Virus record (IMG/VR): IMGVR_UViG_3300047546_000353
Location: 1 to 27,531 of that record
DNA: 27,531 bases
Reading direction: 5' to 3' (one strand)
Source of the DNA: a virus
A program made the translations under genes and the position numbers. The notes beneath the pieces are model-generated. The model was not told the origin of the DNA, did not search any database, and saw only the letters and a list, made by a program, of their open reading frames with translations. Positions 4,657 through 27,531 of the stretch are shown piece by piece. The stretch's first letter is position 1. Each line of letters begins with the position of its first letter.

Positions 4657-4658
4657 TT

Positions 4659-11847: not shown

Positions 11848-11850
11848 ACT

Positions 11851-12419: not shown

Positions 12420-12438
12420 AATTTCAAAAAACCAATTT

Positions 12439-12792
12439 ATGAAAAACATGATGTTAATTACGTCTACCTGGAAAGACGGTAAAACCTTTCGGTTAATTCC
12501 AGTTTCTTCTGAATGTCCATATTTAGAATGTATTTATGATGTACAGTTAAAAGTTCTTGCTGTTATAAGCAAAGAGAAGAAGGATAACTTACATATGGTT
12601 GAAAAGCTAGATGCTAATGGGGATCCTGAATTACGTAAGGTTGCTAAAGATGGTATACCTTTTAAACGTGAGCGTCGTACCTTAGAAACCTATCAAGAAT
12701 ATTATCTAGAGAATAGCGAAGAGATTTCAAAGCTTATTTCACATTTTGCAATTAACGAAGCAGATTTTGACTATAAGCAATACATGGTTTAA
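12439..12792 (+). CDS. Hypothetical protein before the polymerase gene
   Basis: A 117-residue protein I do not recognise. The first half looks like a small beta sheet (MMLITSTW...FRLIPVSS...CIYDVQLKVLAVISKEKK), followed by a charged helix-rich half with KRERRTLETYQEYYLE. It is separated from its neighbours by a candidate promoter in front and a terminator-like hairpin behind, so it may form a monocistronic unit expressed strongly. That, and its position beside the polymerase, suggests a replication-linked or early regulatory role; this is inference only. Confidence 0.55.
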   Translation: MKNMMLITSTWKDGKTFRLIPVSSECPYLECIYDVQLKVLAVISKEKKDNLHMVEKLDANGDPELRKVAKDGIPFKRERRTLETYQEYYLENSEEISKLISHFAINEADFDYKQYMV

Positions 12793-12810
12793 TATTAACT
12801 AAGTAAATTT

Positions 12811-12834
12811 AAGGGGGAGGAATCCCCCATTTTT
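12811..12834 (+). terminator. Intrinsic terminator-like hairpin before the polymerase gene
   Basis: GGGGGA (12813-12818) pairs perfectly with TCCCCC (12823-12828) around a GGAA loop, which fits the GNRA tetraloop form, followed by ATTTTTG. It ends 10 nt before the polymerase ATG at 12839 and closely resembles the hairpin before the primase gene. Confidence 0.75.
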
Positions 12835-12838
12835 GTCT

Positions 12839-14830
12839 ATGAATAACTGGGTAATGGACTACGAAACTCTGATCAACTGTTTTGTGGCAGTGTTTCAACA
12901 TTATAAAACTGAGGAGAGAAAAATATTTGTAGTTCATTCTTTACAAAATGATTATACAGATTTACTTCACTTCTTAAATGAGAATGTTACTAATAAGGAA
13001 TGGCATATATCGTTTAACGGTATAAACTTTGACTCCCAAATAACAGCATTCTTATTAGAAGAAGGTGAAGATCTTATACATCTTAGTCCAGAAAGAATAG
13101 CTTACGCTCTTTATCTGCAAGCACAGGATACCATAGCTAGGTCTAACAATGAAGAGTTCCCCAAATATTCTGAGAAAGATATAAAGATATCTCAGATAGA
13201 CTTATATAGATTAAATCATTGGGATAATAATGCTAAAAGATCCAGCCTTAAATGGATTCAATACTCTATGGATTGGTACAATATCCAAGAGATGCCTATC
13301 CATCATAGTACTATTATCAAAACCAAGGAGGAGATAGATACCATTGTTACATATTGTATTAATGACGTATTGTCTACCAAGGCTATTCTAGAGTTAAGCA
13401 GAGACCAGATTCTTCTGCGTAAAAGTTTAACTAATGAGTATAACATTAATCTATATAGTGCATCTGAACCGAGAATATCTAAGGAGCTGTTCTTATATTT
13501 CTTAAGTAAGAAGACAGGCATAAGAAAGTATGATCTGAAAAAACTTCGAACAGATAGAGATCAGATTGTAGTTAAGGATATAATCCTACCTTATATCACA
13601 TTTAAACGTAGGGAGTTTAATAATATACTTGAGAAGTTTAAATCTCTGGTAATAAACCCTAAGGAAACAAAAGGTGGATTTAAGTATTCTGTTACGCATA
13701 AAGGTGTAAAAACAGACTATGGTCTAGGTGGTTTACATGGCGCTAGTAAGTCGGGGATATATGAAGCTAAGGAAGGTATGATTATAATGACGTCTGACGT
13801 TACTAGTTTCTATCCCAACCTTGCTATCCGTAATAAGTGGTCGCCAGCTCATATACCACAAAGCGAATTCTGTGAACAGTATGAATGGTTCTTTGAAGAG
13901 AGAAAGAAGATTCCAAAGAAAGATCCTAGAAATTATGTATACAAGATTATTCTTAATAGTACTTATGGTTTAAGCAATGATGAGAATAGTTTTCTGTATG
14001 ATCCCGAGTTTACTATGCGTATTACTATTAATGGTCAGTTAAGTCTGACTATGTTATACGAGATGTTATCTACAGGTATCCCCGGTAGTATTCCTATTAT
14101 GCAAAATACTGATGGTCTTGAGATGATGATTCCAGCCACATATAAAGACAAGTATTTGGAAATATGTAAACAATGGGAAGAGTTAACAAGCTTACAGTTA
14201 GAACACGATCAGTATCAGAAGATGATTCTTGCAGATGTTAATAACTATATTGCTGTATATAATTATAAGGATGTAAGTAAATCGGATTGGGAAGAACTTA
14301 AGAAGAAGAACCCGCATCATTTATTTAAAGAGGTAAACGGTAAATACTTATATGCACCTACCAAGTGTAAGGGTAGATTTGAATTTACAGATTTAGCTCT
14401 ACATAAGAATAAAAGTTTCTTGATTATACCTAAAGCTATCTACCACTACTTTGTACATGATACTTTACCTGAAAAGTTTTTGCAGCATAATAGAAATATA
14501 TTTGACTATTGCGGAGGCGTTAAGGCTAAGGGAGATTGGAAGTTTGTAGAGACATGTTTTATAAAAGGTATACGTCATGATACTACTCTTCAGAAGATTG
14601 TTAGGTACTATATATCTAATAAAGGATGTAAGATAGTTAAGCGTAATGTTGTAGACGCGAGAGAGATCCAACTAGAGTCCGGTAAGTGGATGCAAACCAT
14701 TATGGATAAGTTTGAGAATAAAGATTGGAAAGACTACGATATTAATGAAGAATACTATCTTGAAAATATCTATAAAGAAATAGATAACGTTCTAAAAAGA
14801 AGTAAAGAATCTCAATTAAGTTTATTTTAA
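12839..14830 (+). CDS. Family B DNA polymerase with 3'-5' exonuclease
   Basis: Phage replicative DNA polymerase of family B, 663 residues from ATG 12839. An upstream TTG at 12833 would sit in the terminator's T-run and is not needed. Exonuclease motifs are DYET (7-10), FNGINFD (59-65) and YCINDVLST (172-180). Polymerase motifs are A SDVTSFYPNL (319-328), B KIILNSTYGLSN (369-380) and C QNTDGLEMM (422-430). In motif C the first Asp of the usual DTD reads Asn, leaving D425 and motif A D320 as metal ligands. KGRFEF and LHKNKSFLIIPKAI (511-534) fit the region after the palm. There is no long insertion or terminal-protein region, so priming by the DnaG-type enzyme upstream is likely. The following gene starts 1 nt after the stop. 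Confidence 0.9.
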   Translation: MNNWVMDYETLINCFVAVFQHYKTEERKIFVVHSLQNDYTDLLHFLNENVTNKEWHISFNGINFDSQITAFLLEEGEDLIHLSPERIAYALYLQAQDTIARSNNEEFPKYSEKDIKISQIDLYRLNHWDNNAKRSSLKWIQYSMDWYNIQEMPIHHSTIIKTKEEIDTIVTYCINDVLSTKAILELSRDQILLRKSLTNEYNINLYSASEPRISKELFLYFLSKKTGIRKYDLKKLRTDRDQIVVKDIILPYITFKRREFNNILEKFKSLVINPKETKGGFKYSVTHKGVKTDYGLGGLHGASKSGIYEAKEGMIIMTSDVTSFYPNLAIRNKWSPAHIPQSEFCEQYEWFFEERKKIPKKDPRNYVYKIILNSTYGLSNDENSFLYDPEFTMRITINGQLSLTMLYEMLSTGIPGSIPIMQNTDGLEMMIPATYKDKYLEICKQWEELTSLQLEHDQYQKMILADVNNYIAVYNYKDVSKSDWEELKKKNPHHLFKEVNGKYLYAPTKCKGRFEFTDLALHKNKSFLIIPKAIYHYFVHDTLPEKFLQHNRNIFDYCGGVKAKGDWKFVETCFIKGIRHDTTLQKIVRYYISNKGCKIVKRNVVDAREIQLESGKWMQTIMDKFENKDWKDYDINEEYYLENIYKEIDNVLKRSKESQLSLF

Positions 14831-14831
14831 A

Positions 14832-15785
14832 ATGAGTAAAAGAATTCCAACGGGTATTACCCGAGAGTATTTGGAAGCTGTAGCCCTGCCTAATCATGGC
14901 GGGCGCTACACTCCTATTAGCCACAAGTCTATTATAGATAAAGTTCATGAAGAACTTGCTAAACGTGGCTTCAATGTAGAATCAGAATTATACCGTGCAA
15001 GTATTGGCGGTAATGTTGCAAATGGAATCTATATCCTAGATCAGGGTACAGATCCCGATATGAAGATGATGTTCGTATGGGGTAACTCTTACGATAAATC
15101 TATGAGATTTAAATGTGGTGTTGGGGTATACATACCAAAAACTGGTAACTACATCTTCGCCGGTAATATTTCTAGTTATGCTAGAAAGCATACGGGTAAA
15201 GCTGATGAAGAAGCTATTGCTATGATTCAGACCCAGCTTAACCAAGCTAATGCTCACTATACTGACTTACTTGCATCAAGAGATATCTTGATTAATCAGA
15301 CAGCAAGTATACGTACATATTCTGAGTTAGTAGGACGTATGTTTATAGAGAAAGAATGTCTTAATAAAGAACAAGCTTCTTCCGTAAGAGACCGTCTTCT
15401 ACAAGAAGTTTCCTTATTAGATAACTTAGAATGGAATAATGCATGGAACTTCTACAATTCTGTAGCTACCGCATTACGTATGTCACACCCTAAGAATTGG
15501 TTTGAAGATCAGTCTGATTGCCATAAACTTATTACTAACTATTTTGAGGAGTCTAATGAGGTAACTCTACCTGCTCCTGTACAGAACTCTGCAGAACCAT
15601 CTGCTCCAGAGATAGATAATCAGCTAACTATTTTTGATGTAATTGAAACTAAAGAGGAGGCAGTTGCTAACCCTGTTGTTGAAGATTTGTTAGAAGAAAC
15701 CGTTAGCAATAATACCATGGTAGAAGATGAATTTAGTATCTTTGGTGACCCAGATGTACAGACATTTGAACTTCCCGATCTATGA
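14832..15785 (+). CDS. DUF932-like protein with acidic C-terminal tail
   Basis: A 317-residue protein. The segment FVWGNSYDKSMRFKCGVGVYI (approximately residues 80-101) recalls DUF932, a family of phage and plasmid proteins of unknown function; the call is tentative. The region 110-230 is helical. The last 75 residues are Pro/Glu/Asp-rich and probably disordered, ending in FELPDL, somewhat like the FDL tip of the SSB-like protein. No catalytic motif is visible. It lies between the polymerase (1-nt gap) and a MazG-fold-like gene (ATGA overlap), so it likely acts in replication or nucleotide supply. Two hairpins lie near its start (14851-14863 and 14880-14909). Confidence 0.5.
   Translation: MSKRIPTGITREYLEAVALPNHGGRYTPISHKSIIDKVHEELAKRGFNVESELYRASIGGNVANGIYILDQGTDPDMKMMFVWGNSYDKSMRFKCGVGVYIPKTGNYIFAGNISSYARKHTGKADEEAIAMIQTQLNQANAHYTDLLASRDILINQTASIRTYSELVGRMFIEKECLNKEQASSVRDRLLQEVSLLDNLEWNNAWNFYNSVATALRMSHPKNWFEDQSDCHKLITNYFEESNEVTLPAPVQNSAEPSAPEIDNQLTIFDVIETKEEAVANPVVEDLLEETVSNNTMVEDEFSIFGDPDVQTFELPDL
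14880..14909 (+). other. Very stable start-proximal hairpin
   Basis: GTAGC-CCTGCC (14880-14890) pairs with GGCGGG-C-GCTAC (14898-14909): eleven pairs including one T-G wobble, one bulged C and a 7-nt loop. It lies 49-78 nt into the gene and is the strongest of the set. A smaller one, CGGGT/ACCCG at 14851-14863, precedes it. Confidence 0.6.
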
Positions 15786-16276
15786 CAAAGAAAGACTTTA
15801 ACGAAATTATAGAAAAGCGCATTAGTCTTATCAGAAGTACCCTCGCCTCTAAAGGCGGGGAGTACACTTCTGAAGAAGATGCCTTTGAAAGTTTTAAAAC
15901 AATTGCCCAAGGATTATCATTACATGATGATTCTACCAAGGTATTATGGGAGCTTTTAACAAAGCACTTGTATTCTGTAAAAAGAATGGTAGAGTCTCCT
16001 ATAGTTCCTGAGGAAGCACTTGTTAGAGAAAAGATTGGGGATGCTATCAACTATCTTATCCTACTAGAAGGTTTATTCATGGAGGATATAGAGTTTGATA
16101 AGATTGTATATAAAGAATTACAGAAGACTGAAGATAGATTATCTCGGTGGTCTAGTGAGTATCCTCAGGGTACAGACCAACTTGGTTTACCTAAGATGCC
16201 TTCTTATTCTTATACAACAAATGCGGAACCTTGTCGTGTTAAGTATAACCTAGAGTCTGGGGAAAACGGATACTAA
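15782..16276 (+). CDS. DUF1599 / MazG-superfamily-like protein
   Basis: A 164-residue helical protein. The start overlaps the previous stop (ATGA). The pattern DFNEIIEKRISLIRSTL (5-21), then KGGEYTSEEDAFESF, a KH pair near 61-62 and EKIGDAINYLILLEGL (about 84-99) fits the all-helical DUF1599 / nucleotide-modification-associated group related to MazG pyrophosphohydrolases. Such phage proteins are thought to act on (d)NTPs or modified nucleotides. The D and E residues of the helices could bind Mg2+. A second MazG-like gene follows 12 nt later. A GC-rich hairpin lies 60-79 nt inside the gene. Family call moderate, substrate unknown. Confidence 0.6.
   Translation: MTKKDFNEIIEKRISLIRSTLASKGGEYTSEEDAFESFKTIAQGLSLHDDSTKVLWELLTKHLYSVKRMVESPIVPEEALVREKIGDAINYLILLEGLFMEDIEFDKIVYKELQKTEDRLSRWSSEYPQGTDQLGLPKMPSYSYTTNAEPCRVKYNLESGENGY
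15841..15860 (+). other. Start-proximal GC-rich hairpin
   Basis: CCTCGCCT (15841-15848) pairs with AGGCGGGG (15853-15860) including one T-G wobble, with a CTAA loop. It lies 60-79 nt after the gene start. Confidence 0.55.
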
Positions 16277-16288
16277 TTGTAAATTTAT

Positions 16289-16672
16289 ATGAGGAACTTT
16301 GTAGATTTGGTGGCTGAATTCCACTACTTATTTGATCAAAAAGATGCTAAAACGCCAACTTGCGGAAACAAAAAACAAGCAGAACTACGTCATTCTTTAC
16401 TTGCTGAAGAAAACGAAGAGTACCTTGAAGCAGTTTCTGCTAACGATTTGGTGGGTATTGCTGATGCTCTCGGTGATCAGCTATACATTATCTATGGGAC
16501 GATTCTTAAACATGGTCTCCAAGATAAGATCGAAGATGTATTTAAAGAAATACATCGATCAAACTTAAGTAAGTTGGGGGAAGATGGTAAACCAATCTAC
16601 AGAGAAGACGGAAAAATCCTTAAAGGTCCTGGTTACTTTAAACCAGATATCAAAAAGGTATTAGGGGTCTAA
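16289..16672 (+). CDS. MazG-like nucleotide pyrophosphohydrolase
   Basis: Probable all-alpha NTP pyrophosphohydrolase of the MazG/HisE-like group, hydrolysing (d)NTPs to the monophosphate and pyrophosphate. In 127 residues the metal-binding helices are clear: LLAEENEEYLEAV (37-49) with E40, E41 and E44, and GIADALGDQLYII (56-68) with D59 and D63. The C-terminal part (about 85-127: IHRSNLSKL, then YREDGKILKGPGY) is the common phage tail of the family. It could clean up or bias nucleotide pools, or interfere with ppGpp signalling. It is the last gene of the plus operon; its TAA overlaps the stop codon of the opposing 47-residue gene. High confidence in fold. Confidence 0.82.
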   Translation: MRNFVDLVAEFHYLFDQKDAKTPTCGNKKQAELRHSLLAEENEEYLEAVSANDLVGIADALGDQLYIIYGTILKHGLQDKIEDVFKEIHRSNLSKLGEDGKPIYREDGKILKGPGYFKPDIKKVLGV

Positions 16673-16812
16673 CGACCTTGGCCGCGATATGCCTTCTTGT
16701 AATTCTTACTAGACTTTAATCTACTAGTCTTAGACTTTGCTATTACCCCAGGGCGACTAACTTTAGTCGCTTTAGGGGCATAGCTACTTTTTTGCATATT
16801 TACTTTAGCCAT
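16669..16812 (-). CDS. Very basic 47-residue small protein
   Basis: Read by hand: ATG at 16812-16810, stop TAG at 16671-16669, 47 residues. It begins MAKVNMQKSSYAPKATK and ends in SSKNYKKAYRGQGR. It is extremely rich in Lys/Arg and has no acidic residue. Its ATG overlaps the stop of the 120-residue gene as TAATG, which supports real translation. As I remember, small proteins with a similar KKAYRGQGR end occur in crAss-like phages; function unknown, perhaps nucleic-acid binding or a virion component. It is the last gene of the minus operon and its stop overlaps the stop of the opposing MazG-like gene. It contains a strong hairpin (16746-16778). Confidence 0.72.
   Translation of the reverse strand: MAKVNMQKSSYAPKATKVSRPGVIAKSKTSRLKSSKNYKKAYRGQGR
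16746..16778 (-). other. Hairpin inside the 47-residue gene, possible bidirectional terminator
   Basis: GCGACTA (16753-16759) pairs with TAGTCGC (16764-16770) around a 4-nt loop, with outer CCCC (16746-16749) and GGGG (16775-16778). It lies 35-67 nt after the minus start. On the plus strand TTTTTT follows only after about 9 nt (16788-16793), so terminator function for the plus operon is possible but weak. Confidence 0.5.
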
Positions 16813-17174
16813 TACTTTTTCTTGTATTTAGCTTTATACATTCTATCTACTTGGTCTAATGCAGTAATAGTCCCACCTTTCTTCATACCTGGGAATGTCA
16901 TACGTTGACTAGGGGTATTCTCATTAGTTGAAACAACATCATAAGATTTTGTAGATTTCAAGTTTCCTTGTTTATCATACTTGGTTTTAACACCAGTATC
17001 TCTACTTCCGGTATCACTTTCAGTATAGGTACCAGATGTTGTTCTTCTTGTTCTACCCTTTTTATCTTTTACGGTAGTTGTATAGGTATCGCCTGAGGTC
17101 TCATATATTCTATCTCTGAATAAACCTTTGTCAACGATTTTACCGTCTTGTGCTTTTTTTAATTTTTTAGCCAT
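16812..17174 (-). CDS. Basic, Thr/Lys-rich small protein
   Basis: A 120-residue low-complexity protein: Lys-rich N-terminus (MAKKLKKAQDGK), a Thr/Ser/Asp/Lys middle (about 25-85, repeated TTT, TRRTTSGTYTESDTGS) likely to be extended or disordered, then GMKKGGTITALDQ and a Lys-rich end. The KKGGT motif also occurs in the 39-residue protein two genes upstream. No catalytic motif. Such basic small proteins beside lysis genes are common in Bacteroidota phages and may be virion or DNA-binding components; this is inference. ATG 17174 follows an A/T-rich leader and its stop is coupled to the 47-residue gene. Confidence 0.68.
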   Translation of the reverse strand: MAKKLKKAQDGKIVDKGLFRDRIYETSGDTYTTTVKDKKGRTRRTTSGTYTESDTGSRDTGVKTKYDKQGNLKSTKSYDVVSTNENTPSQRMTFPGMKKGGTITALDQVDRMYKAKYKKK

Positions 17175-17185
17175 TGTATTATTTA

Positions 17186-17332
17186 TTATGATCCACAGTA
17201 TAAACAGCCGTCATCTGCGTCTTCGCTTTCGCCGGCTAGTATTTTTTTACATTCAGCATCCACTTGTTCCTCAGACCATTGAGGATGGAAAGCTTTTACT
17301 TGGGCTCTAAGAAATTGATAGTTATTATCCAT
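17186..17332 (-). CDS. Acidic 48-residue protein with a CxxC end
   Basis: Read by hand: ATG 17332-17330, stop TAA 17188-17186. It begins MDNNYQFLRAQVKAFHPQW. The C-terminus is acidic (GESEDADDG) and ends CLYCGS, with cysteines at 29, 43 and 46. The CxxC pair could bind a metal or be redox active, perhaps together with C29. Its ATG overlaps the stop of the 39-residue gene (TAATG), the best evidence that it is real. It is acidic among basic neighbours, so a partner or anti-aggregation role for them is conceivable. Not recognised. Confidence 0.62.
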   Translation of the reverse strand: MDNNYQFLRAQVKAFHPQWSEEQVDAECKKILAGESEDADDGCLYCGS

Positions 17333-17451
17333 TACTTCTTACCCATTTTCTTCATAGTCATTTTAGACTTTGTAGTTCCGCCTTTCTTAAAATTAGACTG
17401 AACAGTACGCGGTTTATTAGCGTATACAGGTGCTTCAATTGCTTTTTTCAT
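17332..17451 (-). CDS. Basic 39-residue protein with KKGGT motif
   Basis: Read by hand: ATG 17451-17449, stop TAA 17334-17332. It begins MKKAIEAPVYANKPRTV and carries FKKGGTTKSKMTMKKMGKK at the end. It is strongly basic with no hydrophobic segment. The KKGGT motif is shared with the 120-residue protein, suggesting related function or a common ancestor. Its stop is coupled to the 48-residue gene by TAATG; it starts 12 nt after the stop of the 151-residue gene. Perhaps a virion or nucleic-acid-binding micro-protein; not proven. Confidence 0.62.
   Translation of the reverse strand: MKKAIEAPVYANKPRTVQSNFKKGGTTKSKMTMKKMGKK
17406..17424 (-). other. Start-proximal hairpin in the 39-residue gene
   Basis: TACGC (17406-17410) pairs with GCGTA (17420-17424), loop 9 nt. 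It lies 28-46 nt after the minus start at 17451. Confidence 0.35.
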
Positions 17452-17462
17452 GTTTTATAGTT

Positions 17463-17918
17463 TTAATGTGTTATCGTGTAAATCAAACTACTAAATAAAA
17501 ATACGGAAATTCCCCCGAAGATCCAATTATTTCTTTTAGAAACTGTCAACTTATCCTGTGTATCAGATAAAGAATCTCTTACCGCTACCAGCTTAAGGTT
17601 GAGAGCAGAGTTCTGACTGAGGCACTCTGTTGTTCTTTCATTCGCCAAAGTGATTTGTTCACTAGCCTTCTTGATCTCGTACTCCTTATCAAGGATACGG
17701 AGCGTGAGGGTATTACTAATTTCTTTTTGCCTTTCCAAACTGGCTTTAACATAGTCATAGTCAACAACAATTTTAAGCAGCTGTTCCTCTTGCTTATCGG
17801 TAAAGAAGATCCCTTTAGTATCATCCCAGTTAATTCTTTGGGGTGTAAGTTGTCCATAGTTGGTCCCGTTGCTTATCATCAGCAGTAGGGATAAGAGCAA
17901 TAGTTTGATCGCGTTCAT
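17463..17918 (-). CDS. Spanin-like protein: signal peptide, coiled coil, C-terminal membrane anchor
   Basis: 151 residues. It begins with a typical export signal (MNAIKLLLLSLLLM, cleavage perhaps after SNGTNYGQ), continues with a heptad-like coiled coil (about 55-128) and ends with a membrane segment (131-150, NWIFGGISVFLFSSLIY). It therefore spans the periplasm from an exported N-terminus to an inner-membrane C-terminus, as a unimolecular spanin does. However, there is no lipobox cysteine, so outer-membrane anchoring is not shown. Its start lies 89 nt inside the preceding coiled-coil gene in another frame, like the Rz/Rz1 overlap. A second Met at residue 14 would destroy the signal. Lysis role is inferred from layout. 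Confidence 0.6.
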   Translation of the reverse strand: MNAIKLLLLSLLLMISNGTNYGQLTPQRINWDDTKGIFFTDKQEEQLLKIVVDYDYVKASLERQKEISNTLTLRILDKEYEIKKASEQITLANERTTECLSQNSALNLKLVAVRDSLSDTQDKLTVSKRNNWIFGGISVFLFSSLIYTITH

Positions 17919-18195
17919 CTTTATCTTGTTTATCTTGTTGATTAATTACGTTAATCTGGTTAATTCTCTGAAGATCTACAATCTTTAAACTGTCTTGTAT
18001 AAGTTTAAACTTTAGAGAGTCTATCTCCATAGCATGTTTAGTTTCTGCAGCAAAAGACTTAGCTTTTAAATCTTCTATCTTAGACTCTGTAACATTTAGC
18101 TTGTATATAAGTACAGCTATCCATATACCCACGGCTAATATAGCTGAAAGTACTAGTATCTCAATTACTAGATTCTTCTGTTTCTGGTTTGACAT
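17830..18195 (-). CDS. Rz-like inner-membrane spanin candidate
   Basis: 121 residues: a short cytosolic lysine-rich start, one membrane helix (about 10-32, VIEILVLSAILAVGIWIAVLIY), then a long predicted coiled coil with many Asp/Lys/Gln (about 35-100) and a short end (RDQLWTTYTPKN). This N-in, single-pass topology with a periplasmic coiled coil is that of inner-membrane spanins (Rz). The gene overlaps the holin-like gene by 35 nt and the following spanin-like gene by 89 nt. No sequence family is recognised; the call rests on topology and location. Confidence 0.6.
   Translation of the reverse strand: MSNQKQKNLVIEILVLSAILAVGIWIAVLIYKLNVTESKIEDLKAKSFAAETKHAMEIDSLKFKLIQDSLKIVDLQRINQINVINQQDKQDKDERDQTIALIPTADDKQRDQLWTTYTPKN
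17869..17900 (-). other. Start-proximal hairpin in the spanin-like gene
   Basis: On the plus strand, TTGCT-TATC (17869-17877) pairs with GATA-AG-AGCAA (17890-17900): nine pairs with a two-base bulge. It lies 19-50 nt after the minus start at 17918. Confidence 0.4.
18114..18146 (-). other. Start-proximal inverted repeat in the Rz-like gene
   Basis: CAGCTAT (18114-18120) and ATAGCTG (18140-18146) are perfect seven-base arms 19 nt apart, 50-82 nt after the minus start at 18195. Confidence 0.4.
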
Positions 18196-18436
18196 CTTCT
18201 TTAGGTTTAACCGGTAAATTCATCTTTTGGGTAAATACACCCTCTAACATAGTTCCTACAAATACCCCACCTCCTATAAACATAATGGTGTTATACATAT
18301 ACTCCGGGGTTTTGTACTCTGAGAATGTAGCTATCCATGCTAAGGCTGACCCTGTAAGAATACAGTAGAGACCTACAAGTCTTTTAGAACTTTGGTCTCC
18401 GTCCTTACTTAATATAGATAGTATCCACTTCTTCAT
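18161..18436 (-). CDS. Holin-like two-pass membrane protein
   Basis: 91 residues with two hydrophobic segments (about 20-38, LVGLYCILTGSALAWIATF, and 48-67, MYNTIMFIGGGVFVGTMLEG), a charged N-terminus and a charged, Pro/Glu-rich C-terminal tail. The size and topology fit a class II holin that would open the inner membrane for the cell-wall enzyme encoded directly upstream. The gene is coupled to that enzyme by TAATG and overlaps the Rz-like gene by 35 nt. Holins share little sequence, so the call rests on topology and neighbours; another small membrane protein cannot be excluded. Confidence 0.6.
   Translation of the reverse strand: MKKWILSILSKDGDQSSKRLVGLYCILTGSALAWIATFSEYKTPEYMYNTIMFIGGGVFVGTMLEGVFTQKMNLPVKPKEDVKPETEESSN
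18368..18399 (-). other. Start-proximal hairpin in the holin-like gene
   Basis: Outer arms GAGACC (18368-18373) and GGTCTC (18394-18399) and inner arms AAGT (18377-18380) and ACTT (18389-18392) form ten pairs with an internal loop. It lies 38-69 nt after the minus start at 18436. Confidence 0.5.
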
Positions 18437-18981
18437 TAGAACTCTCTTAATAGGGTATAAGTAAATGCTTTATTACCAGAGGCTTTACAAGCTGCAATTA
18501 ATGTAGCGTATTCAGTTGGATTATTAAGTACTTGACATCCAGCACTCCATTTTTCTATAAGACTTGAGATAGCATTAGGATTAGCACGGTGTATGTTAAT
18601 ACCAAACAAACCGGTATCTTCTTTACCTTGCTCTTCAGCAGTTTCGTCTCTGTCATTATCTCTATAAACTGTTACATTTTTTACTTGAACTAAAGCTTCA
18701 TACTGTCCTTTGTGTAATCCTAACTTCCAAGTATCAATATACTGCCCCGGTTTAAGGACTGCAGTTCCTTTAGGATTCATAAGGTTTAGTAACCAGTGTC
18801 TTCCTGGATTTGTTGTCCCTGAGAATACTCGCATCAATGGACCATTTACTAAGTAAAAGGTATCATCAAACTTGTTCTTTTCATTAGCCTTAGACCTCAC
18901 ACCAATAACGTGTAAGGTTGGCCATTGATATCCTAGTCTAGCAAACTCTGCTTCTAGTTCTGTATAAGAATACTTTTTCAT
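18436..18981 (-). CDS. Cell-wall enzyme with YkuD-like H...SxGC motif (endolysin candidate)
   Basis: 181 residues, no signal peptide. The catalytic-looking region FGINIHRANPN (126-136) with H131 and KWSAGCQVL (144-152) with S146 and C149 gives H-x14-S-A-G-C. This resembles the active site of L,D-transpeptidases (YkuD fold, HX14-17-[S/T]HGC). In a phage lysis cassette such a fold would act on peptide cross-links of the host wall as an endolysin, or remodel the wall. Lack of an export signal fits release through the holin encoded next door. The SAGC in place of SHGC is a deviation. The gene starts 17 nt after the giant-protein stop and is coupled to the holin gene by TAATG. Confidence 0.62.
   Translation of the reverse strand: MKKYSYTELEAEFARLGYQWPTLHVIGVRSKANEKNKFDDTFYLVNGPLMRVFSGTTNPGRHWLLNLMNPKGTAVLKPGQYIDTWKLGLHKGQYEALVQVKNVTVYRDNDRDETAEEQGKEDTGLFGINIHRANPNAISSLIEKWSAGCQVLNNPTEYATLIAACKASGNKAFTYTLLREF
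18895..18917 (-). other. Start-proximal hairpin in the cell-wall enzyme gene
   Basis: In mRNA sense CCTTACAC pairs with GTGTGAGG (plus 18917-18910 and 18902-18895): eight pairs including one U-G wobble, loop 7 nt. It lies 65-87 nt after the minus start at 18981. On the plus strand the wobble would be a C-A mismatch. Confidence 0.5.
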
Positions 18982-18998
18982 GTAGCGAATATAAGTAA

Positions 18999-21900
18999 TT
19001 ATCTCCAGTTTTGTCCTTTAACCCAGTTAATTACCGCCATATCAGGCGATACTGTTTTACCAGACAAACCTAATGATCTACCAAAGTAAGTAAGAACTTT
19101 AGATCCTTCATACCAAGTATCTCCTTCTTTTTGCATCCATACATATGGGCCCTCATCTTGATCAAAGTATGCTTTAGAATGGTCCGTACCAAATAAGCTA
19201 TGTCCAGCATGTAAGGCGCTAAACGCTATAATCTTTTTATAGTTATCCCAGGTATTGGTCATAGATACTGATTCCATGCTTAATAAGTCAATATAGTTAT
19301 CTGCTCCATAACCTGGAATAGGTAACCATTGTACAGATTCATTCTTAAGTTGCATAGTTAAGTAGAGCAAGTGATTAGACATCCACCCTCCTAGTTTAAA
19401 CTCTCCTTGTCCTTCTGCCACCCCGAATATGGGTAATGGTCCTGACTTAGATCTAAGTTTAGCAAACTTATCCTCATCGTCCTCATCAAAGCCAAATATG
19501 AAAGATATGGCCATACTAAATGCTACAACGTAAGCAACGTCCATTATTGTTTTTAACATAGCTGCTTTTTCATCATCTGATAAGAAGTTGGCGTATTCTC
19601 CCCTAGTCTTAATCATTCTACCAAAGGCTCTAATAGATTCTATATGATAACCCATAGCGGTATCTCCGACAGCGGCATCAAATCTATATCTAGGATCTCT
19701 AAGGCTTCCACGATGTTGCCATCTATTTAAAAACATCCTTAAGAACCAGCGTTTAAATGCTATTGCAAATCGGAAGGCCACATATCTATCTGCTTCAGCA
19801 TATTCGAACTTTGCAAAAGAACCGGCTAAGTTATTTGTTACACCGTGTACTTTATTCTTAAATGCTTTAAACTTAACACCGTTTACATCCCAGTCTTTAT
19901 TTACTCCTTCTTTTAATTTTATCTGACCATCCTTCATCTCCCAAGCATCCATGTATGATATTTTTCTAGTGACACCATCTATAGTTTGTTCTACAGATTT
20001 TTCGTGATACATCATAGCTCCAAAAATAGAAAGAGTAGAATTTAATTCTGTCCATTTACGGAAGCTTGTCATCCAACTTAATCCACCTAAGGCATCTTTA
20101 GTTAAAGATCTTGATCCATGTTCTATAAATTTTTCTTCGAATCTTCCTTGATATGGATCAAAGAGCTCTATCATTTGTGTATTTAAAGATTTAGGACCAA
20201 ACTTGTATAGCTCTAAACTTACTTCCCATGTAGCTTTATTAGAGAATGCCACCCCCTGTGTATAGGACTGATGGTTAAAGTACTTACCGCCGGCTGCTTC
20301 AATAAGAGATTGGATTCTTAAACCAAAAGAGTTCTTTATAGCAGAAGGAATATCCATTGCAAAGTATCCAAATGCTGAAGCCTTCATAATATTATCTGCT
20401 AGCTTGTGGATCCATATGTTATCAGAGTCGGCACCTAGTGCCCCTTTCTGCAACTTACCTTCAAATTCTCTTTCTACAAAGTTATCTATAGCTTTTTGCC
20501 TTATAGACTTTTCTCCTTTCTTAGTACGTTTAGCAGCTCTTTGTTCAAAGGCGTTTACAAGATTGGCTCCAGATAACATGTCTTTGGTAAGACCTTTTAT
20601 CTGCCTTACTGTATTATCTGGATCAGATAGTACCGTTTGTAAAGCCCTAGCCATAGGATTCATTTGTATTAGAACTCTCTGTTTTTCCGCAGAGATCATA
20701 TATCTTAACATTGACTCTGTTAAGTTAAGAGATACGTTATCATATTCTATATCTGATAGACCGGTAATAGGAACTCCCGCAAACTGATCATCAAATAAAT
20801 CTCCCTTAACCATGGTCTGTTGATCGGATAAACCATAACCTCTATCAAAGTCATCGGCTGATCCTACAAATAAAGCTCGGAATCTTTTCCACCAGCTGCT
20901 TATAGGGTTCTCCATTTTTCCCTCTGCAGAGAACATACTTAATCTAGCTTCGTAGTTACTTCTCATATAACGAGGTATATCTAGAAATAGCTTAGATGTA
21001 TTTGGACTATCCTTTTGGAAATCTAGTTGCCACTTCATTAAAGCTACAAGAGCTCTATGTAGATCTTTATTTTTTTCTACTTCAAAATACTTCTCATTGA
21101 TATATGGGCTATCCGGTACATCTAGTCTAGGTAGGAAGTCTCCTTTAGAATCTACATTAGCTAGTTTAACATCTCCCATTTCTATAGCTTCCTCTAATGT
21201 AACAACCTTTGTTACATATTCATCCTTAACAACTCTATCATAGTAGTTCATTGTAGGAATACCAGATATAACTTCTGTTTCTCCTTGAGAGTTTGTAAAA
21301 GAAAATAGCTCTAGGTATTCTGAAGAACGGGGTCTTGTCACACTCCAGGCTTTTACTCTTTCTATTTTAATGTACTCTTCACCATTTCTATCTACAGCTG
21401 TTTGCATAGTATGATTGTTTCTAAACCATTCTGCAAACTCTGGACTCTGCTCATCTAAGAAGTCTAAGAATCTTTCATCTAGTAAAAACTTAGCATTTGT
21501 TTTATCAACATCTTTAAAGCCCATTCTCTCCTGAAGCGCTTCAAGATCTACAAGATACATGTAGTTGTTTATAATATCTATGTAGTAATCTGTAGGGACC
21601 GACTCCTGTAATTCAGCAAGATCAGCATATAACTCGTATATTCTCTTCTTTGTTTTTTCAGGTAACCCTTCCTTTTCTTTTTTAAATAGTAAGTCATTTA
21701 ACTTTAGTCTTTCTTCAGTTGAAAGATCCTCTCCATTTTTTAATTTCTGAAAATAGATAGTGAGCTCATCATGTTCTAATGCTGTAAGACCGCTAGCTTT
21801 AGCAATACCTTTCTTTGTAGTTTCAATCATTTGCTGAACTCTTTTAATTTCAGCAATGTTTTTTACATCCATAGCCGTAGCCTCAGGCTGCATGTCTTCA

Positions 21901-24737
21901 TCTCTGAATGGAGACATAAGCTGCATAAGTCTTTCATAAAGATCGGCTAGTTCTTCTTGGGTATCAGTATCTTTAGGGAGAGATTTTGTTAACTCTTTTA
22001 GTTCATCGAGAATCTCTTTTTGTTTTTCAAAGTAGGAATCTTTTATTTTAAATCTACTATTATTATATATCCATTTTGTTCTTAGACGATTGAATGCAGG
22101 AGATCCTCTTTCATATTCCCGATCTATTAAAAATTGTTCGTGGGCAGCTAAAGCATTCGTAAATAAATTTGGTATAAGTTCTTCTCTATATAAGTCTTTA
22201 GATGCATTTCTAAATTCTCTAAGACGCTCTGCGATCTTTATACCTTCTTCATCCTTCAAACTACCGCTTGGTAAATAATTGGAGAACAACTGTCTATATT
22301 CCCTCCATAATCCTTCTAACTCTTCGCTAGCATCTAATCTTTCATTTAAAGATTGGACATTCATACCCGATGTTAGATTCTGTATTTTTGCCAATATATC
22401 AGCTCGCATTGCTTCAGCCTTAGCTCCGATTATATCATTCGGTCCTTTCCTAAATACATTATAGCGATTGTAATATTCTGGAGTATACTTATCGTGGAAG
22501 TACTTTCTTCTTTCTTCTTGAAGTTTAAGCTTAAGTTCTAAAAGTTTAGTAGTATCTCCCGTTTGTGCTGCTACTAATTGTTCAGCTGTTATTTCATTTT
22601 GCATTTTACCTAATGCATAACGATAACCTCTCCAAGGATTTATTAAGGTATGAACTAGCTTATCTTCATACTCTCCTGTTTCAGCATTCTTTCCCCCCTT
22701 AGAATCTAAGAATGTAACACGTCTACCAAATTCTGCGGGGTTAGCTTGGTTATATCCTGCAGCCTCTAATAAAGGTTTTACCTCAGCTAAAAACTTATTA
22801 CCTCTTACTTGTGAATTAGTAAAGACTTCTGTCATTCTATTTTTAACAAAGGTCGCAAATCCAAATACTATAGGATCCTGGTTATAGATATATCCTTCTA
22901 GAAAAGAATTAAGGGCGTGTGCATCTCCTAATTCACCAGTCATAAGATATTCTATTTTCTCTTCTGATAAGTAGGCGCCTTCTTTATAGCTTATGAGTTT
23001 TAATCTATCATATACTTCTTTTTCTGATGCTGTTAAGTTTTCTCCGGCGTCAACTCTACTCTTAAGTGATAAGAACTTGGATAGGGCTTCGCCTGATAAC
23101 CCCCAATAATCTTTTTGTCTTAACTCTATTATGGCTGGAGGAGCATTTCTTTTTTTAAGATCCTCCATCATACCTTTAAATTTATCATCGATCTGTTGCT
23201 GCATAGGCGCAAGAGTCTCTTTAATAATAGAGGATGTGCCTGCAAAATATATTTTACTGGTATGATTCCTAGAGGTTTTAATTTCCGTGGCAATAGATCC
23301 GATTAACTCATAAATAGGGTTATCGCTATCTATATTACCTAGGGCGGCGTCATCATCTAGCTTCTTTTGCAAGTCGCCTAAGAAGTTTTCCCAGTAGCTA
23401 ATAACATTATTATAATAGAATACTGTTGCTACATTCTGCTTTGAATCAGGATCTTTTACTAATTTAAGTAAGGCATCGTTTAATCTCCTTACCATATACT
23501 TAGTTCTAATTAAACTATTTACAAATGCTTCAGTGTGCTTTCGTGCAAACTCCGCATCTCTATATAGTTTACTCATCTCGTTCTCATAAACAGATCTTAT
23601 ATCTTGATAAGGCGCAAGGTTTTTAAATATTTCAGATAAGTCAGGTCTTTGAAAAGCATCCTTTAATATCTCCGACATCCCATCGTAATCCTTATTCTTT
23701 TCAAGTAGGGCTATCTGCTTCTTAACCATTTCAAAAAATAAGTTTGTACTTTGCTGAAGCTGATTAGAAGATAAGTTCTTCATTGCTGATACATACTTAT
23801 TTACATCTTCCATATAGAGAACGACGTCCTCGTTTGTAACAGCTGATAAGTCTATATCAAACTGTTCTAGTACAAGCATGTTACCTAATTCTTCTATTGT
23901 GGTATCTGCTTTTAAGTTCTCTACTTTTATTTTTTCTTTTGTTTCACCAAATACTTTTCTTATTATTTGCTTTATTGCATATAATAAATCTGATATAAAC
24001 TTACTAAATGCTGATTTAGGATCTTCTTCCGCAGCATTTGCTAATGATCTAACTAAAGCTTCCTCTAATATAGTAGGATCATCCTCCGCCAAATTAGAAT
24101 AGCTATCTCTAGATTGTGCTACCAGTTCCTGACCCCTAGCAGTAGATCTAAGTTTCTCAACAAGATTATTAAATAATGCAGGGTTGCTCATTCTTATAGC
24201 CCTAATAAGAGGGTGAGCAAATTCGTGTAGTACTGTTTTCTCTGTAACTAAATTAGGAATAAGATATACCTTTCCATTATAGAAGAATCCCGGCTGACCT
24301 TTCCAACTATCTATGTTTTTGGTAAGACGTATAGCTTCATCCTCCGTAATAAATTCATACGGAACATTTAAATTACTGCTAAGTTTCTCTGCTAAAAGAT
24401 TTACAGTAGCTGATGCCTTGAGCAAATTTTGTGACTCGGTATCCAGCTTAATGGAATTCATTAATACTTTATACTCTGGAAAAGCATTCATTACGTCAGC
24501 AAATCCATGAAGTCTGTCAGTCATTACGGGTTGTCTACCTTCTGTATTCCAGACATTTAAGTCTTCCAGCATTCCCCTAAACTGTTCTTTAGTTGGAACA
24601 ATAGGATCCTGACCTAACTGTAAGTTGTTATTAAACATCATAAAAGCTCTAAGAGCATATGTCGATGCCATATGCCCTAGGCCAATACTCTTACCATATT
24701 CTGTTAGTTCGTCTAAGTTAGGAGCGGGACAAATCAT
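18999..24737 (-). CDS. Giant 1912-residue polyvalent-type protein with zincin domain
   Basis: Very large late protein. Near the N-terminus, residues 150-176 (FFYNGKVYLIPN, then LHEFAHPLI) form the classic zincin motif HEFAH (171-175), with E225/E226 downstream as a possible third ligand. This fits the metallopeptidase domain found in phage polyvalent proteins. The middle (about 290-1100) is long, charged and helical with probable coiled coils and repeated Lys/Glu runs. A hydrophobic segment (about 1728-1748, YVVAFSMAISFIFGF) lies near the end, before a Trp/Tyr-rich C-terminal region. The size and late position suggest a virion-packaged protein injected with the DNA, possibly self-processing. 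Only the zincin motif is directly supported. The ATG lies 2 nt after the helicase stop. Confidence 0.68.
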   Translation of the reverse strand: MICPAPNLDELTEYGKSIGLGHMASTYALRAFMMFNNNLQLGQDPIVPTKEQFRGMLEDLNVWNTEGRQPVMTDRLHGFADVMNAFPEYKVLMNSIKLDTESQNLLKASATVNLLAEKLSSNLNVPYEFITEDEAIRLTKNIDSWKGQPGFFYNGKVYLIPNLVTEKTVLHEFAHPLIRAIRMSNPALFNNLVEKLRSTARGQELVAQSRDSYSNLAEDDPTILEEALVRSLANAAEEDPKSAFSKFISDLLYAIKQIIRKVFGETKEKIKVENLKADTTIEELGNMLVLEQFDIDLSAVTNEDVVLYMEDVNKYVSAMKNLSSNQLQQSTNLFFEMVKKQIALLEKNKDYDGMSEILKDAFQRPDLSEIFKNLAPYQDIRSVYENEMSKLYRDAEFARKHTEAFVNSLIRTKYMVRRLNDALLKLVKDPDSKQNVATVFYYNNVISYWENFLGDLQKKLDDDAALGNIDSDNPIYELIGSIATEIKTSRNHTSKIYFAGTSSIIKETLAPMQQQIDDKFKGMMEDLKKRNAPPAIIELRQKDYWGLSGEALSKFLSLKSRVDAGENLTASEKEVYDRLKLISYKEGAYLSEEKIEYLMTGELGDAHALNSFLEGYIYNQDPIVFGFATFVKNRMTEVFTNSQVRGNKFLAEVKPLLEAAGYNQANPAEFGRRVTFLDSKGGKNAETGEYEDKLVHTLINPWRGYRYALGKMQNEITAEQLVAAQTGDTTKLLELKLKLQEERRKYFHDKYTPEYYNRYNVFRKGPNDIIGAKAEAMRADILAKIQNLTSGMNVQSLNERLDASEELEGLWREYRQLFSNYLPSGSLKDEEGIKIAERLREFRNASKDLYREELIPNLFTNALAAHEQFLIDREYERGSPAFNRLRTKWIYNNSRFKIKDSYFEKQKEILDELKELTKSLPKDTDTQEELADLYERLMQLMSPFRDEDMQPEATAMDVKNIAEIKRVQQMIETTKKGIAKASGLTALEHDELTIYFQKLKNGEDLSTEERLKLNDLLFKKEKEGLPEKTKKRIYELYADLAELQESVPTDYYIDIINNYMYLVDLEALQERMGFKDVDKTNAKFLLDERFLDFLDEQSPEFAEWFRNNHTMQTAVDRNGEEYIKIERVKAWSVTRPRSSEYLELFSFTNSQGETEVISGIPTMNYYDRVVKDEYVTKVVTLEEAIEMGDVKLANVDSKGDFLPRLDVPDSPYINEKYFEVEKNKDLHRALVALMKWQLDFQKDSPNTSKLFLDIPRYMRSNYEARLSMFSAEGKMENPISSWWKRFRALFVGSADDFDRGYGLSDQQTMVKGDLFDDQFAGVPITGLSDIEYDNVSLNLTESMLRYMISAEKQRVLIQMNPMARALQTVLSDPDNTVRQIKGLTKDMLSGANLVNAFEQRAAKRTKKGEKSIRQKAIDNFVEREFEGKLQKGALGADSDNIWIHKLADNIMKASAFGYFAMDIPSAIKNSFGLRIQSLIEAAGGKYFNHQSYTQGVAFSNKATWEVSLELYKFGPKSLNTQMIELFDPYQGRFEEKFIEHGSRSLTKDALGGLSWMTSFRKWTELNSTLSIFGAMMYHEKSVEQTIDGVTRKISYMDAWEMKDGQIKLKEGVNKDWDVNGVKFKAFKNKVHGVTNNLAGSFAKFEYAEADRYVAFRFAIAFKRWFLRMFLNRWQHRGSLRDPRYRFDAAVGDTAMGYHIESIRAFGRMIKTRGEYANFLSDDEKAAMLKTIMDVAYVVAFSMAISFIFGFDEDDEDKFAKLRSKSGPLPIFGVAEGQGEFKLGGWMSNHLLYLTMQLKNESVQWLPIPGYGADNYIDLLSMESVSMTNTWDNYKKIIAFSALHAGHSLFGTDHSKAYFDQDEGPYVWMQKEGDTWYEGSKVLTYFGRSLGLSGKTVSPDMAVINWVKGQNWR
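24655..24675 (-). other. Start-proximal inverted repeat in the giant gene
   Basis: GCATAT (24655-24660) and ATATGC (24670-24675), perfect arms with a 9-nt loop, lie 63-83 nt after the minus start at 24737. A smaller GCTC-TAA-GAGC hairpin lies at 24646-24656. Confidence 0.35.
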
Positions 24738-24739
24738 TT

Positions 24740-27531
24740 TTATTTACTTTTAAAATTACATTTTCTTTGTTCTATAATATCCTCATCGGTAATAGCATTA
24801 CCTTTCTGAACTAACATTCTACCTTCCTTAAACGATAAGTAATGAGGATTTATATAACCAAATTTACGATATAATTGCTCTGATAGGTACAAGAAAGTTT
24901 GTTTAGCTATAACAGGTAATGTTGGTTTTTGCACGGTTGGTTGATTTTCTACATAACCAATCATGTACTGACCAAATCCGTATTCGTCTATAACTAAGAA
25001 TTTCTTTTCTCCTGGAGCAGCAAGCTGATTTTCAATAGCATTAAGAGATGCATCTATAATACGTTTATTGTCATCAAGTGTTGCATCAGTCATTGCGCTA
25101 AGTTTATTATGCTTATCAGATCCAATTTTTGTAGGGGCTGGGCCGTGTTTAGTTGTTACACCTGCTGCATTATTACCTAGCAATCTCCATATACTGTTTG
25201 ATCCAATAGGGTTACCATTACCATCGTAGTCGTTAAACATAACAAGAGCATTAGGGTAATCTGCTATGAACTCTTTTACTGTAGCTTCCGTAAGAATACC
25301 TTTCATAGGAACAGTTATAGCTTTAGTAACAAGTTTACCATCCACCATATACTTTGATTTTTCTATATCAAGATTATAGCTGAAGGTTCTAATACCCGTA
25401 CTAGGATCCTCCATGATTTTTATCTTTTTATATGTACTGATATTTAATGGATATTTATAAGTTACTGGTCCAACCGCTGCTGAGAATGCTTTAGTAAAAC
25501 TATCGTTCCATTCTATATCCGTAGGTAAGCTAGCAGCATCTCCTTTATTAACTCGAGCATAGGCAATATTTGTAGCGCGAGATAATCCCACATACGTTAA
25601 CTGATTCTTCTGCTCTATGTCTGTCATTTGACTTAGAGATGTAAGATCTACAAATATATTAGTATACGTTGCTCCTTGAGATTTATGAATAGTATGAGCA
25701 TAACCATAGTCTACACCCTTCTTAATTTTTGTTTTATCATTCTTTTCAACCGCCTTAGTACTAAGAAATGAATTTGTAAATCCGTTAAAGTTTTTATATA
25801 CTCCTGTTTTTTTAGCTTGCTGATCTAATGCATCTGCCTGCTCTGCCAATCTGTCTAAACTTTCTTGACTTGTATTTGGATCTAGAACAAATATTGAAAT
25901 AGGAGAGGCTGATGAATCAAATAGATCTTGAATTAAAAGTCTATATCCTGCTACTGTAACTGGAGTATTTAATTTCTTATCTGTAAACATAGCATCTTCT
26001 AAGTATCTTTTTCCAATTTCTGTAGAAGGTACAAACTCACTTGCTATGATAACATAGTCTACAGAGTTTTTGAAAAGGTAATCTCCTGAAAGATACTGAG
26101 CATTCTGATAAGACATTAATACCTCACCTTCTCTAAACTCCCCAGTTAAGCCAAGACTTTTTCTAATGTTTTTATTATAATCAGTTACTTTATCATTAGA
26201 GTAGGTTACTATTCTTGCAAAGTTTCTATTAGTAGCAAAGTTATCCGATCTGAAAGCCTTAGCTGCCGCAGATAAGAAAGCCTCTTCACTATCTACAAAA
26301 CCTATACCCTCGTTACCATTTATTACAGAATCAGTAGAGAATTGTCTAGTAGGTGATTTAATATTACTTCTAATAGCATCTAATATTGGACCTAAAGGAT
26401 TGTCACCTGTCTGACGTTCTACAGTAGTAAGCTCATATGAGTTAGAGATATCTGTAAATACTTTAGATGTATGCTTTTGTTTTACAGGCTTAATCTGAGC
26501 AGGGTCTCCAATAAATATAATTTTTAGATCAGCTCTACTGTTAACTTCATCTTCTATAAAAGAATATAAAGAATCTGAAATAAAAGAAGACTCATCAATA
26601 ATAATAACATTAGCAGCACTGCTCTTTTCCCCAGTTCTAAGGAAGTTTAGTTCACTTAGGTCTAACTCTTCTAGGGGTTTAGGACTAGGTCTTAATCCTA
26701 GCAGCTTATGTAAAGTACTTGTTTGTGTTTCAGTAGCTCTAGCAAGTACACTTTTTGCTTTATGTGTAGTTGCAGTAAGGCCTGTTCTAATATTTCTAAG
26801 TAATAAGTACTTCAGTAAAATCTTAGTTATACTTGTTTTACCTGTACCAGCATATCCTTTTAAGGAGAACATCTTTTGATCTAGGTCTTTCGGATTGGCT
26901 TCTATAAAGTCAACCATTTGCTGTAAAGCAATTAGCTGCTCAGCATTAGGCGTAAATCCAATATTTAATGTATTAAGATTTATGCTTATTACTTTACCGT
27001 CTGGTCCATTTAGTTTTACAACTCTACTAGAATCTGCATCATCTCCTATTTCTTCTTGAGAAGAGAATGGATCTGGCGGAACAATACTCGGATCTAGATT
27101 AATTATTCTATTTCTAGTATCTTGTGTTAGCTCTAAATTTTTTACGGAGCTATTAGCCCAATTCTTAAGTTTGTTCTTAAACTTATTAGACTTATTATAT
27201 TGACTCTTAACAAACTGTAAAGTATAATCAGCAAGTACAGACGACTGTTCATCTAGCGAAGATTTTACAAAATCATTATAGGGTTTTGATATAAGAGGTA
27301 GATATGATTCAAAAGGTATTGCTCTAATCAAACTGTATGTACTCTTAGCATCAGAACCAGATTGTAATATTGCAAATAAAGGTAAGATCTGGAATAACTC
27401 AGATATCTTCTGATTGTCGGCATCGTCTTCTACTTTCTTAACAGAAGGGTTTGCCAATTCTGTAAAGTTTATAACATATTGGTTATAGTCATCTTTAGTC
27501 AGTAGGGTGTTACTAAACTTAAGGTTTGTAA
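24740..27531 (-). CDS. RecD-like SF1 helicase in a large protein, partial at the right edge
   Basis: The visible part holds a complete superfamily 1 helicase core. Counting from the TTG at 27457, motifs are a Q-like segment FTPNAEQLIAL (168-178), Walker A GYAGTGKTS (201-209), TATTHKAK (228-235), Walker B IIIDESSF (285-292), motif III FIGDPAQIKPV (315-325), ELTTVERQ (342-349), and the later AHTIHKSQGAT and YVGLSRAT of motifs V and VI. This matches RecD/TraI-type AAA_30 helicases. The TTG is not a real start: the frame stays open to the window edge without a stop or ATG, so the true protein exceeds 929 residues. Some 250 residues of unknown sequence follow the helicase. Its place with lysis genes rather than the replication operon is unusual. 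Confidence 0.82.
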   Translation of the reverse strand, partial: TNLKFSNTLLTKDDYNQYVINFTELANPSVKKVEDDADNQKISELFQILPLFAILQSGSDAKSTYSLIRAIPFESYLPLISKPYNDFVKSSLDEQSSVLADYTLQFVKSQYNKSNKFKNKLKNWANSSVKNLELTQDTRNRIINLDPSIVPPDPFSSQEEIGDDADSSRVVKLNGPDGKVISINLNTLNIGFTPNAEQLIALQQMVDFIEANPKDLDQKMFSLKGYAGTGKTSITKILLKYLLLRNIRTGLTATTHKAKSVLARATETQTSTLHKLLGLRPSPKPLEELDLSELNFLRTGEKSSAANVIIIDESSFISDSLYSFIEDEVNSRADLKIIFIGDPAQIKPVKQKHTSKVFTDISNSYELTTVERQTGDNPLGPILDAIRSNIKSPTRQFSTDSVINGNEGIGFVDSEEAFLSAAAKAFRSDNFATNRNFARIVTYSNDKVTDYNKNIRKSLGLTGEFREGEVLMSYQNAQYLSGDYLFKNSVDYVIIASEFVPSTEIGKRYLEDAMFTDKKLNTPVTVAGYRLLIQDLFDSSASPISIFVLDPNTSQESLDRLAEQADALDQQAKKTGVYKNFNGFTNSFLSTKAVEKNDKTKIKKGVDYGYAHTIHKSQGATYTNIFVDLTSLSQMTDIEQKNQLTYVGLSRATNIAYARVNKGDAASLPTDIEWNDSFTKAFSAAVGPVTYKYPLNISTYKKIKIMEDPSTGIRTFSYNLDIEKSKYMVDGKLVTKAITVPMKGILTEATVKEFIADYPNALVMFNDYDGNGNPIGSNSIWRLLGNNAAGVTTKHGPAPTKIGSDKHNKLSAMTDATLDDNKRIIDASLNAIENQLAAPGEKKFLVIDEYGFGQYMIGYVENQPTVQKPTLPVIAKQTFLYLSEQLYRKFGYINPHYLSFKEGRMLVQKGNAITDEDIIEQRKCNFKSK

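Follow-up and report, generated by a model that had tools for sequence, protein, structure and literature searches.

Two giant late genes and the proteins they encode

The stretch of DNA analysed here (the window) is a linear IMG/VR fragment of 27,531 base pairs (bp), IMGVR_UViG_3300047546_000353, in which two giant open reading frames (ORFs) on the minus strand are separated by a gap of 2 bp. One encodes 1,912 amino acids (aa) with an HEFAH motif at residues 171-175, and the other encodes 929 aa of a helicase protein and runs open off the window edge; an earlier note, made from the letters of the sequence, had described both, and both are confirmed. By homology they are very probably the RNA polymerase-associated cargo protein (Gamma) and the virion RNA polymerase (RNAP; protein B) of a crAss-like phage. 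Their features are as follows.

24740..27529, minus strand: ORF of 929 aa, predicted C-terminal 929 residues of the giant crAss-like virion RNA polymerase protein B; its 5' end lies beyond the window, judging from the ORF of relatives
26975..27529, minus strand: C-terminal stretch of RNAP; covers residues 1-185 of the 929-aa piece (72% identity to L002 over 929 aa; helicase start placed by hidden Markov model, HMM)
25520..26974, minus strand: superfamily 1 (SF1; Dda/RecD-like) helicase domain, residues 186-670, from HMM and motifs
24758..25519, minus strand: conserved tail domain at the C-end (like DUF7831 in relatives), followed by YLSxxLYxxFGYxNP ... KC
24758..24760, minus strand: terminal Cys codon of B, residue 924 of 929, the sole Cys in the piece
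18999..24737, minus strand: ORF of 1,912 aa, zincin protein (Gamma) homologous to crAss001 gp49 and phi14:2 gp65
24729..24731, minus strand: terminal Cys codon of Gamma, residue 3, the sole Cys in 1,912 aa
24018..24440, minus strand: zincin domain, residues ~100-240
24213..24227, minus strand: HEFAH zinc-binding motif
24060..24065, minus strand: Glu-Glu at 225-226, invariant; possible third ligand of the zinc
19470..20519, minus strand: region aligned with phi14:2 gp65, residues 1407-1756

The helicase as a domain of the virion RNA polymerase

SF1 motifs I, II, III, V and VI are all intact in the window helicase, which matches Dda-like helicases (phrog_325, 5e-80); the Dda structure (PDB 3upu) is also matched by protein P0003. 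The helicase that the earlier note called RecD-like is, on sequence comparison, one domain of a much larger crAss-like virion RNA polymerase, of which the 929-aa piece is the C-terminal part, and not a separate protein. In five relatives (L002, L003, G001, G002 and L058) the helicase frame continues into RNAP; the open frame extends over 2,746 aa in L002 and 3,055 aa in L003 and includes KSGGDFDIDKMF. The DFDID sequence, which is the DxDxD catalytic motif, is present in L002, L003 and G001, and the window stops short of the RNAP core. (L051 has a broken reading frame where the close relative L058 is intact, likely an assembly error or a broken gene.) P0003 matches the crAss-like DNA-dependent RNA polymerase (6vr4_A, 6.6e-27) across two stretches, and tblastn found 97 phage records, of which nearly all among the matches listed are crAss-like.

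The complete protein B is seen in the 82-kb contig G001, where a single protein of 4,552 aa (P0005) consists of a zincin domain (zincin-1, with HEAWH at position 1250), RNAP with DFDID, the SF1 helicase (~3816-4315) and the conserved tail. The HExxH motif is retained in 56/56 relatives of B. G001 also carries crAss-like TerL, portal and major capsid protein genes, TerL at 24-26% to crAss phages and Flavobacterium phages and the other two recognized by profile; the window fragment itself carries none of the three. The group may thus belong within the order Crassvirales or next to it. The RNAP-helicase fusion occurs in Suoliviridae records and was not described in the available text of the literature, although Fig. 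3 of PMC7886860, which shows the domains of the transcription block, may already draw it (papers are cited by PubMed Central number, here and below).

The zincin protein

Full-length relatives of the zincin protein are present in four IMG/VR contigs (L002, 90% identity; L009, carried by G001, 68%; L003, 58%; L008, carried by G002, 53%), and the ORF is not a product of chance, because these relatives are full length at 53-90% identity; HExxH is retained in all 57 Gamma relatives examined. Residues H171, E172, H175, E225 and E226 are invariant across five sequences, and helices are predicted at 166-184 (bearing HExxH) and 221-238 (bearing Glu). A model of the zincin domain built from five sequences (predicted local distance difference test, pLDDT, 63) has the expected order of helix, strand, HExxH helix and Glu helix. 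Foldseek gave no match to this model at E<=1e-3; in VIA the best Z was 7.1, and the top rows over residues 100-244 were mostly zincin metalloproteases at middling Z of 5-7. Searches of the whole protein against PHROGs, Pfam and PDB sequences gave no usable family match, and the best Pfam match, TPR1-like_2nd (1.7e-4), was discarded as below the cut-off.

The assignment to Gamma comes from the C-terminal third. By blastp it matches crAss001 gp49 (3.4e-9 for L002, the 90%-identical relative) and phi14:2 gp65 (0.001 for the window protein, 1.4e-6 for L002), and a profile search gave 4.3e-6 for gp65 and 5.5e-4 for gp49. The gene lies directly downstream of the RNAP gene, as is the case for cargo of the gp49/gp65 type, and in the record of cr11_1 the annotation is already that of an RNAP-associated protein with a fused zincin protease. 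An N-terminal extension of ~100 to 1,100 residues precedes the zincin domain in L061, L075, L084, L091 and L092, forming a second variable region.

Virion cargo in known phages

The phi14:2 proteins gp65, gp66 and gp67 are annotated from tandem mass spectrometry of virions (record annotation), and gp66 is packaged in the virion and active as an RNAP, the set belonging to the crAss-like transcription block (PMC7886860). In crAss001, gp47, gp49 and gp50 are virion cargo by mass spectrometry (PMC10172136), and RNAPs of up to ~6,000 aa are mentioned for crAss-like phages (PMC10136315). Injection of both window proteins, which the earlier note had put forward, is therefore well supported by their homology to proteins detected in the virions of phi14:2 and crAss001. 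The main known role of such a cargo set, however, is on this analysis early transcription, which the earlier note overlooked.

The gene order of the window group recurs in phi14:2, cr118_1 and cr50_1. The Cellulophaga phage phi14:2 (gp65-gp66-gp67, PDB 6vr4) shares RNAP homology including DFDID, the order B-Gamma, a Gamma homologue (gp65) with its own HExxH, and terminal cysteines at C1797 (A, the third cargo protein), C3 and C2179 (B), and C3 (Gamma), but its gp66 has 2,180 aa with neither helicase nor zincin, whereas the window group fuses zincin-1 and helicase to B. In crAss001 (gp47-gp50-gp49), the homologous RNAP and gp49 and the terminal cysteines are likewise present, but the polymerase has no helicase, gp49 has no HExxH, and gp47 is on the opposite strand from gp50 and gp49, the cysteine pattern being kept nonetheless. 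The Suoliviridae phages cr118_1 (gp14) and cr50_1 likewise combine zincin, RNAP and SF1 helicase within a single ORF, annotated only as 'exonuclease V' or 'DNA helicase', but in them A is fused too and the HelC tail domain was not detected. The N4 virion RNAP gp50 is also a giant injected RNAP with a zincin domain (PMC5512222), though of another RNAP type and as a single giant protein.

Cysteines at the facing ends of the cargo proteins

A scan for the RNAP core gave 199 relatives, of which 80 loci were kept, forming 62 clusters at 95% identity; the counts that follow come from these clusters, the window being excluded since its RNAP core lies outside it. A cysteine was called terminal within 12 residues of the C-end or 8 residues of the N-end. 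The cargo proteins are nearly free of cysteine, and a single Cys stands at each end that faces a neighbour: the C-end of A, both ends of B and the N-end of Gamma. At the C-end of B, Cys lies 0-7 residues from the end in all 61 clusters in which the end is seen, and at its N-end Cys is among the first 8 residues in 49/49 with the start seen. With one sequence per 60% cluster, both ends of B carry Cys in 28 of 28 lineages, against a chance expectation of 0.0 for random placement and 0.12 per end from composition; Trp, His, Met, Phe, Tyr and Gly had no comparable enrichment at the ends in the same test. The 48 B proteins with both ends seen have a mean length of 3,634 aa and contain exactly two cysteines in 44 cases and three in the other 4. 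The ORF upstream of B, taken as A, has Cys at most 12 residues from its C-end in 48/48 (one further cluster with the start of B seen yielded no upstream ORF). Among Gamma proteins, 58 of 59 have Cys in their first 8 residues; the one that does not, L118, comes from a split gene, likely an assembly error or a broken gene, and truly begins with MAC in a different frame. Cys within 12 residues of the C-end of Gamma was found in none of 27 complete proteins.

A nucleotide cause such as gene overlap or a start signal was rejected: the Cys stands at differing places (0 to 9 residues before the C-end, residue 3 to 7 at the N-end), it is encoded by TGT as well as TGC, and in crAss001 the genes of gp47 and gp50 are not neighbours. 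A comparison set of other ORFs from the 80 loci was set aside; it comprised 10 ORFs, some of them A itself, and 5 of the 10 had Cys in the last 8 residues.

Fusions between cargo genes bear on what the cysteines are for. A, B and Gamma are separate in phi14:2, crAss001, DAC15 and Dulem virus 41; A and B are fused in cr118_1, cr50_1, cr108_1, cr7_1 and cr273_1, and probably in FPSV-S29, as judged by length from a C-terminal part in which the N-end is not seen; B and Gamma are fused in cr11_1 and cr271_1. In these fusions, cr273_1 apart, the Cys pair of the fused junction is absent and the remaining pair is kept. Seventeen junctions could be seen on both sides, and at 16 both cysteines are within the limits, the exception being that of cr273_1. 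The rule was derived from the phages sampled first together with the environmental group, the outcome in cr11_1 was expected but unrecorded beforehand, and cr273_1, sampled before the rule, does not fully fit; cr271_1 and cr7_1, examined after it was set down, both conform. A C-end Cys is also present in cr10_1, whose downstream gene lay outside the comparison. The rule was not found in the available text of the literature on crAss-like RNAP, zincin or helicase, terminal cysteines and disulfides, the tail disulfides of crAss001 apart.

The Leptolyngbya cyanophage Lbo-JY46 (L029, 14590-22836 and 9930-14588) encodes a Gamma-like protein in which HExxH occurs twice, and shows a two-protein version of the cysteine arrangement, in which Cys as the last residue is followed by Cys4; DxDxD was not found in the five of its proteins that were checked.

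An insert slot between the polymerase and its tail

Of the 62 clusters, 57 have the tail domain, whether the helicase is present or not, and the helicase therefore occupies a slot between RNAP and tail. This slot contains an SF1 helicase in 9 clusters, other helicases in 2, other inserts of more than 200 aa in 13 and nothing in 38. Pfam names an AlkB-like 2OG-Fe(II) oxygenase in L062, L076, L105, L116 and L119, NADAR in L111, cpYpsA SLOG in L115 and L119, a P-loop kinase in L114 and DUF7831 in L086 and L116; a match to ART-PolyVal is weak, and the inserts of L053, L078, L079 and L080 have no confident Pfam match. The naming omits L052 and L109, and the extra copy of DUF7831 and the AlkB labels are confined to scanned slots. 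The zincin, RNAP and helicase of G001 P0005 and the other payloads of its relatives are cases of several disparate activities in one polypeptide, and the earlier note was right that metallopeptidase and helicase are combined in giant late proteins.

On a quick RNAP tree, a payload must have been gained or lost 13 times or more. Two divergent ones apart, the fused helicases form one group, in which those of the Suoliviridae cr118_1 and cr50_1 stand with that of the window, with support (90/94) that is below the strict mark of the tree program; in the Intestiviridae the SF1 helicase is free and belongs to another block. The model of the tail domain from five sequences (pLDDT 60) showed no fold, and Foldseek found no significant match to it; the link to DUF7831 comes from sub-threshold Pfam matches in relatives (E 6e-6 to 5e-5).

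A proposed disulfide train and its alternatives

In the proposed scheme, three proteins, A-B-Gamma, are packed in the virion as a set and injected, and the window genes supply its final two, B and Gamma. After injection, B would transcribe early genes as phi14:2 gp66 does, and its helicase would probably open or clear the incoming DNA for the polymerase. The facing terminal cysteines, which suggest from sequence a link between the two window proteins, would most likely pair as disulfides in the mature particle. The resulting thread, A-S-S-B-S-S-Gamma, of ~8,350 residues in G001, may exit with the N-end leading, its order and ratio fixed, and the reducing cytoplasm of the host could then split it into three proteins. 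Cysteines that face each other at junctions, are lacking at outer ends, are missing as a pair on fusion and are nearly absent elsewhere fit what a disulfide chain needs. In the crAss001 virion there are inter-subunit disulfides in the tail and portal vertex, and N-to-C ejection of gp45 with partial unfolding of the cargo has been proposed (PMC10172136). The N4 ejection proteins gp50, gp51 and gp52 (L128) contain zero cysteines, and therefore injected proteins may in general be poor in cysteine, whereas terminal cysteines are not a general feature. Taken whole, with the helicase in B, the zincin in Gamma and a disulfide thread ejected N-end first, this is the best explanation and has a slightly better than even prospect of being right; that the RNA polymerase set is injected as a covalent head-to-tail train, with a slot before the polymerase tail that loads differing enzymes, here a helicase, is evenly balanced.

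Several points weigh against it. For this phage the proposal draws on genes, from which disulfide pairing between cargo proteins would be deduced, and a chain in six or more copies could have its cysteines join like ends, or the portal or tail. Low cysteine by itself is not special, as the N4 proteins illustrate. Extra cysteines occur in crAss001 gp50 (Cys1334), in the 4 of 48 B proteins with three, in cr118_1 gp14 (5) and in cr271_1 gp48 (15), and the last Cys of the fused A+B of cr273_1 is 49 residues before the annotated end, outside the 12-residue limit. The environmental A was placed by position, and its representative in G001 (g007) has no match to crAss001 gp47 or phi14:2 gp67. Many hosts are anaerobic, which makes the timing of oxidation doubtful.

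The partner of each thiol cannot be read from sequence, and the terminal cysteines might instead anchor the ends to the portal, tail barrel or capsid, or share a metal site, with no A-B-Gamma chain, a reading for which the disulfides known in the tail barrel, fibre hubs and gp57 dimer of crAss001 (PMC10172136) provide a precedent but which appears unlikely. Cys is on exactly those ends that face a neighbour and not on outer ends, and fusion coincides with absence of just that pair, whereas an anchor to a wall would have no need to disappear upon fusion. A variant in which B closes on itself and A joins Gamma would require re-pairing after every fusion.

The injected proteins could also be chiefly polyvalent cargo that disarms the host, with helicase and zincin as effectors. 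The likeness to polyvalent proteins drawn by the earlier note is apt: the AlkB-like, NADAR, SLOG, kinase and weak ART-PolyVal inserts share one place in relatives, the presence of a payload changes repeatedly on the tree, and no domain is commoner in polyvalent proteins than the zincin (PMC5512222). A counter-defence role of the window proteins is possible and compatible with the disulfide train, but as the chief function it is rather improbable, the core protein being an RNA polymerase, 38 of 62 clusters having no insert, and nothing pointing to a defence target of the window helicase. The interpretation in the earlier note is partly supported.

Less probable again is a zincin that matures the set by cutting B and Gamma before or after injection. 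The retention of HExxH throughout the B and Gamma relatives would suit a protease, and P1 DdrB is processed ahead of packaging, but the N4 virion RNAP with such a domain is packaged uncut (PMC5512222 for both), HExxH is missing from crAss001 gp49, and conservation of the termini with their Cys speaks for proteins that are used with the ends encoded. That the helicase ORF is a plain replication gene of the early class, here by accident, is very improbable despite the free SF1 helicase of Intestiviridae, since it forms one ORF with RNAP in five relatives, lies on the late strand and would join a replication block that already has a DnaB-like helicase.

Neighbouring genes

The plus strand from 1 to 16672 is a replication block encoding a DnaB-like helicase, a Sak4-like protein, a primase, an exonuclease and a DNA polymerase, with which the zincin and helicase ORFs, among the late genes of the minus strand (16812-27531), are convergent. 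Both giant genes are thus apart from this block, and both are upstream of the following gene, as the earlier note had it.

18436-18981, minus strand: probable lysis gene (phrog_3000 and endolysin matches)

Small overlapping ORFs, some with hydrophobic N-ends, lie between the zincin gene and the replication block (17463-18436, minus strand); by look alone they are possible candidates for holin/spanin genes. At 6258-8672 on the plus strand, a gene assigned to phrog_1314 (labelled HNH endonuclease) adjoins an AAA ATPase gene (phrog_1297), and its product looks like a zinc-motif and VWA-type protein, not an HNH nuclease.

Implications for delivery of crAss-like cargo

The proposal bears on how a narrow phage tail can pass several giant proteins in sequence and at a constant ratio. 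Nearly every crAss-like cargo set examined, very divergent ones included, obeys the terminal-cysteine rule. If the proposed train is real, it would be a delivery principle absent from the literature searched, by which the order, ratio and polarity of delivery would be fixed. The payload slot, for its part, makes the polymerase a carrier of other enzymes as well.
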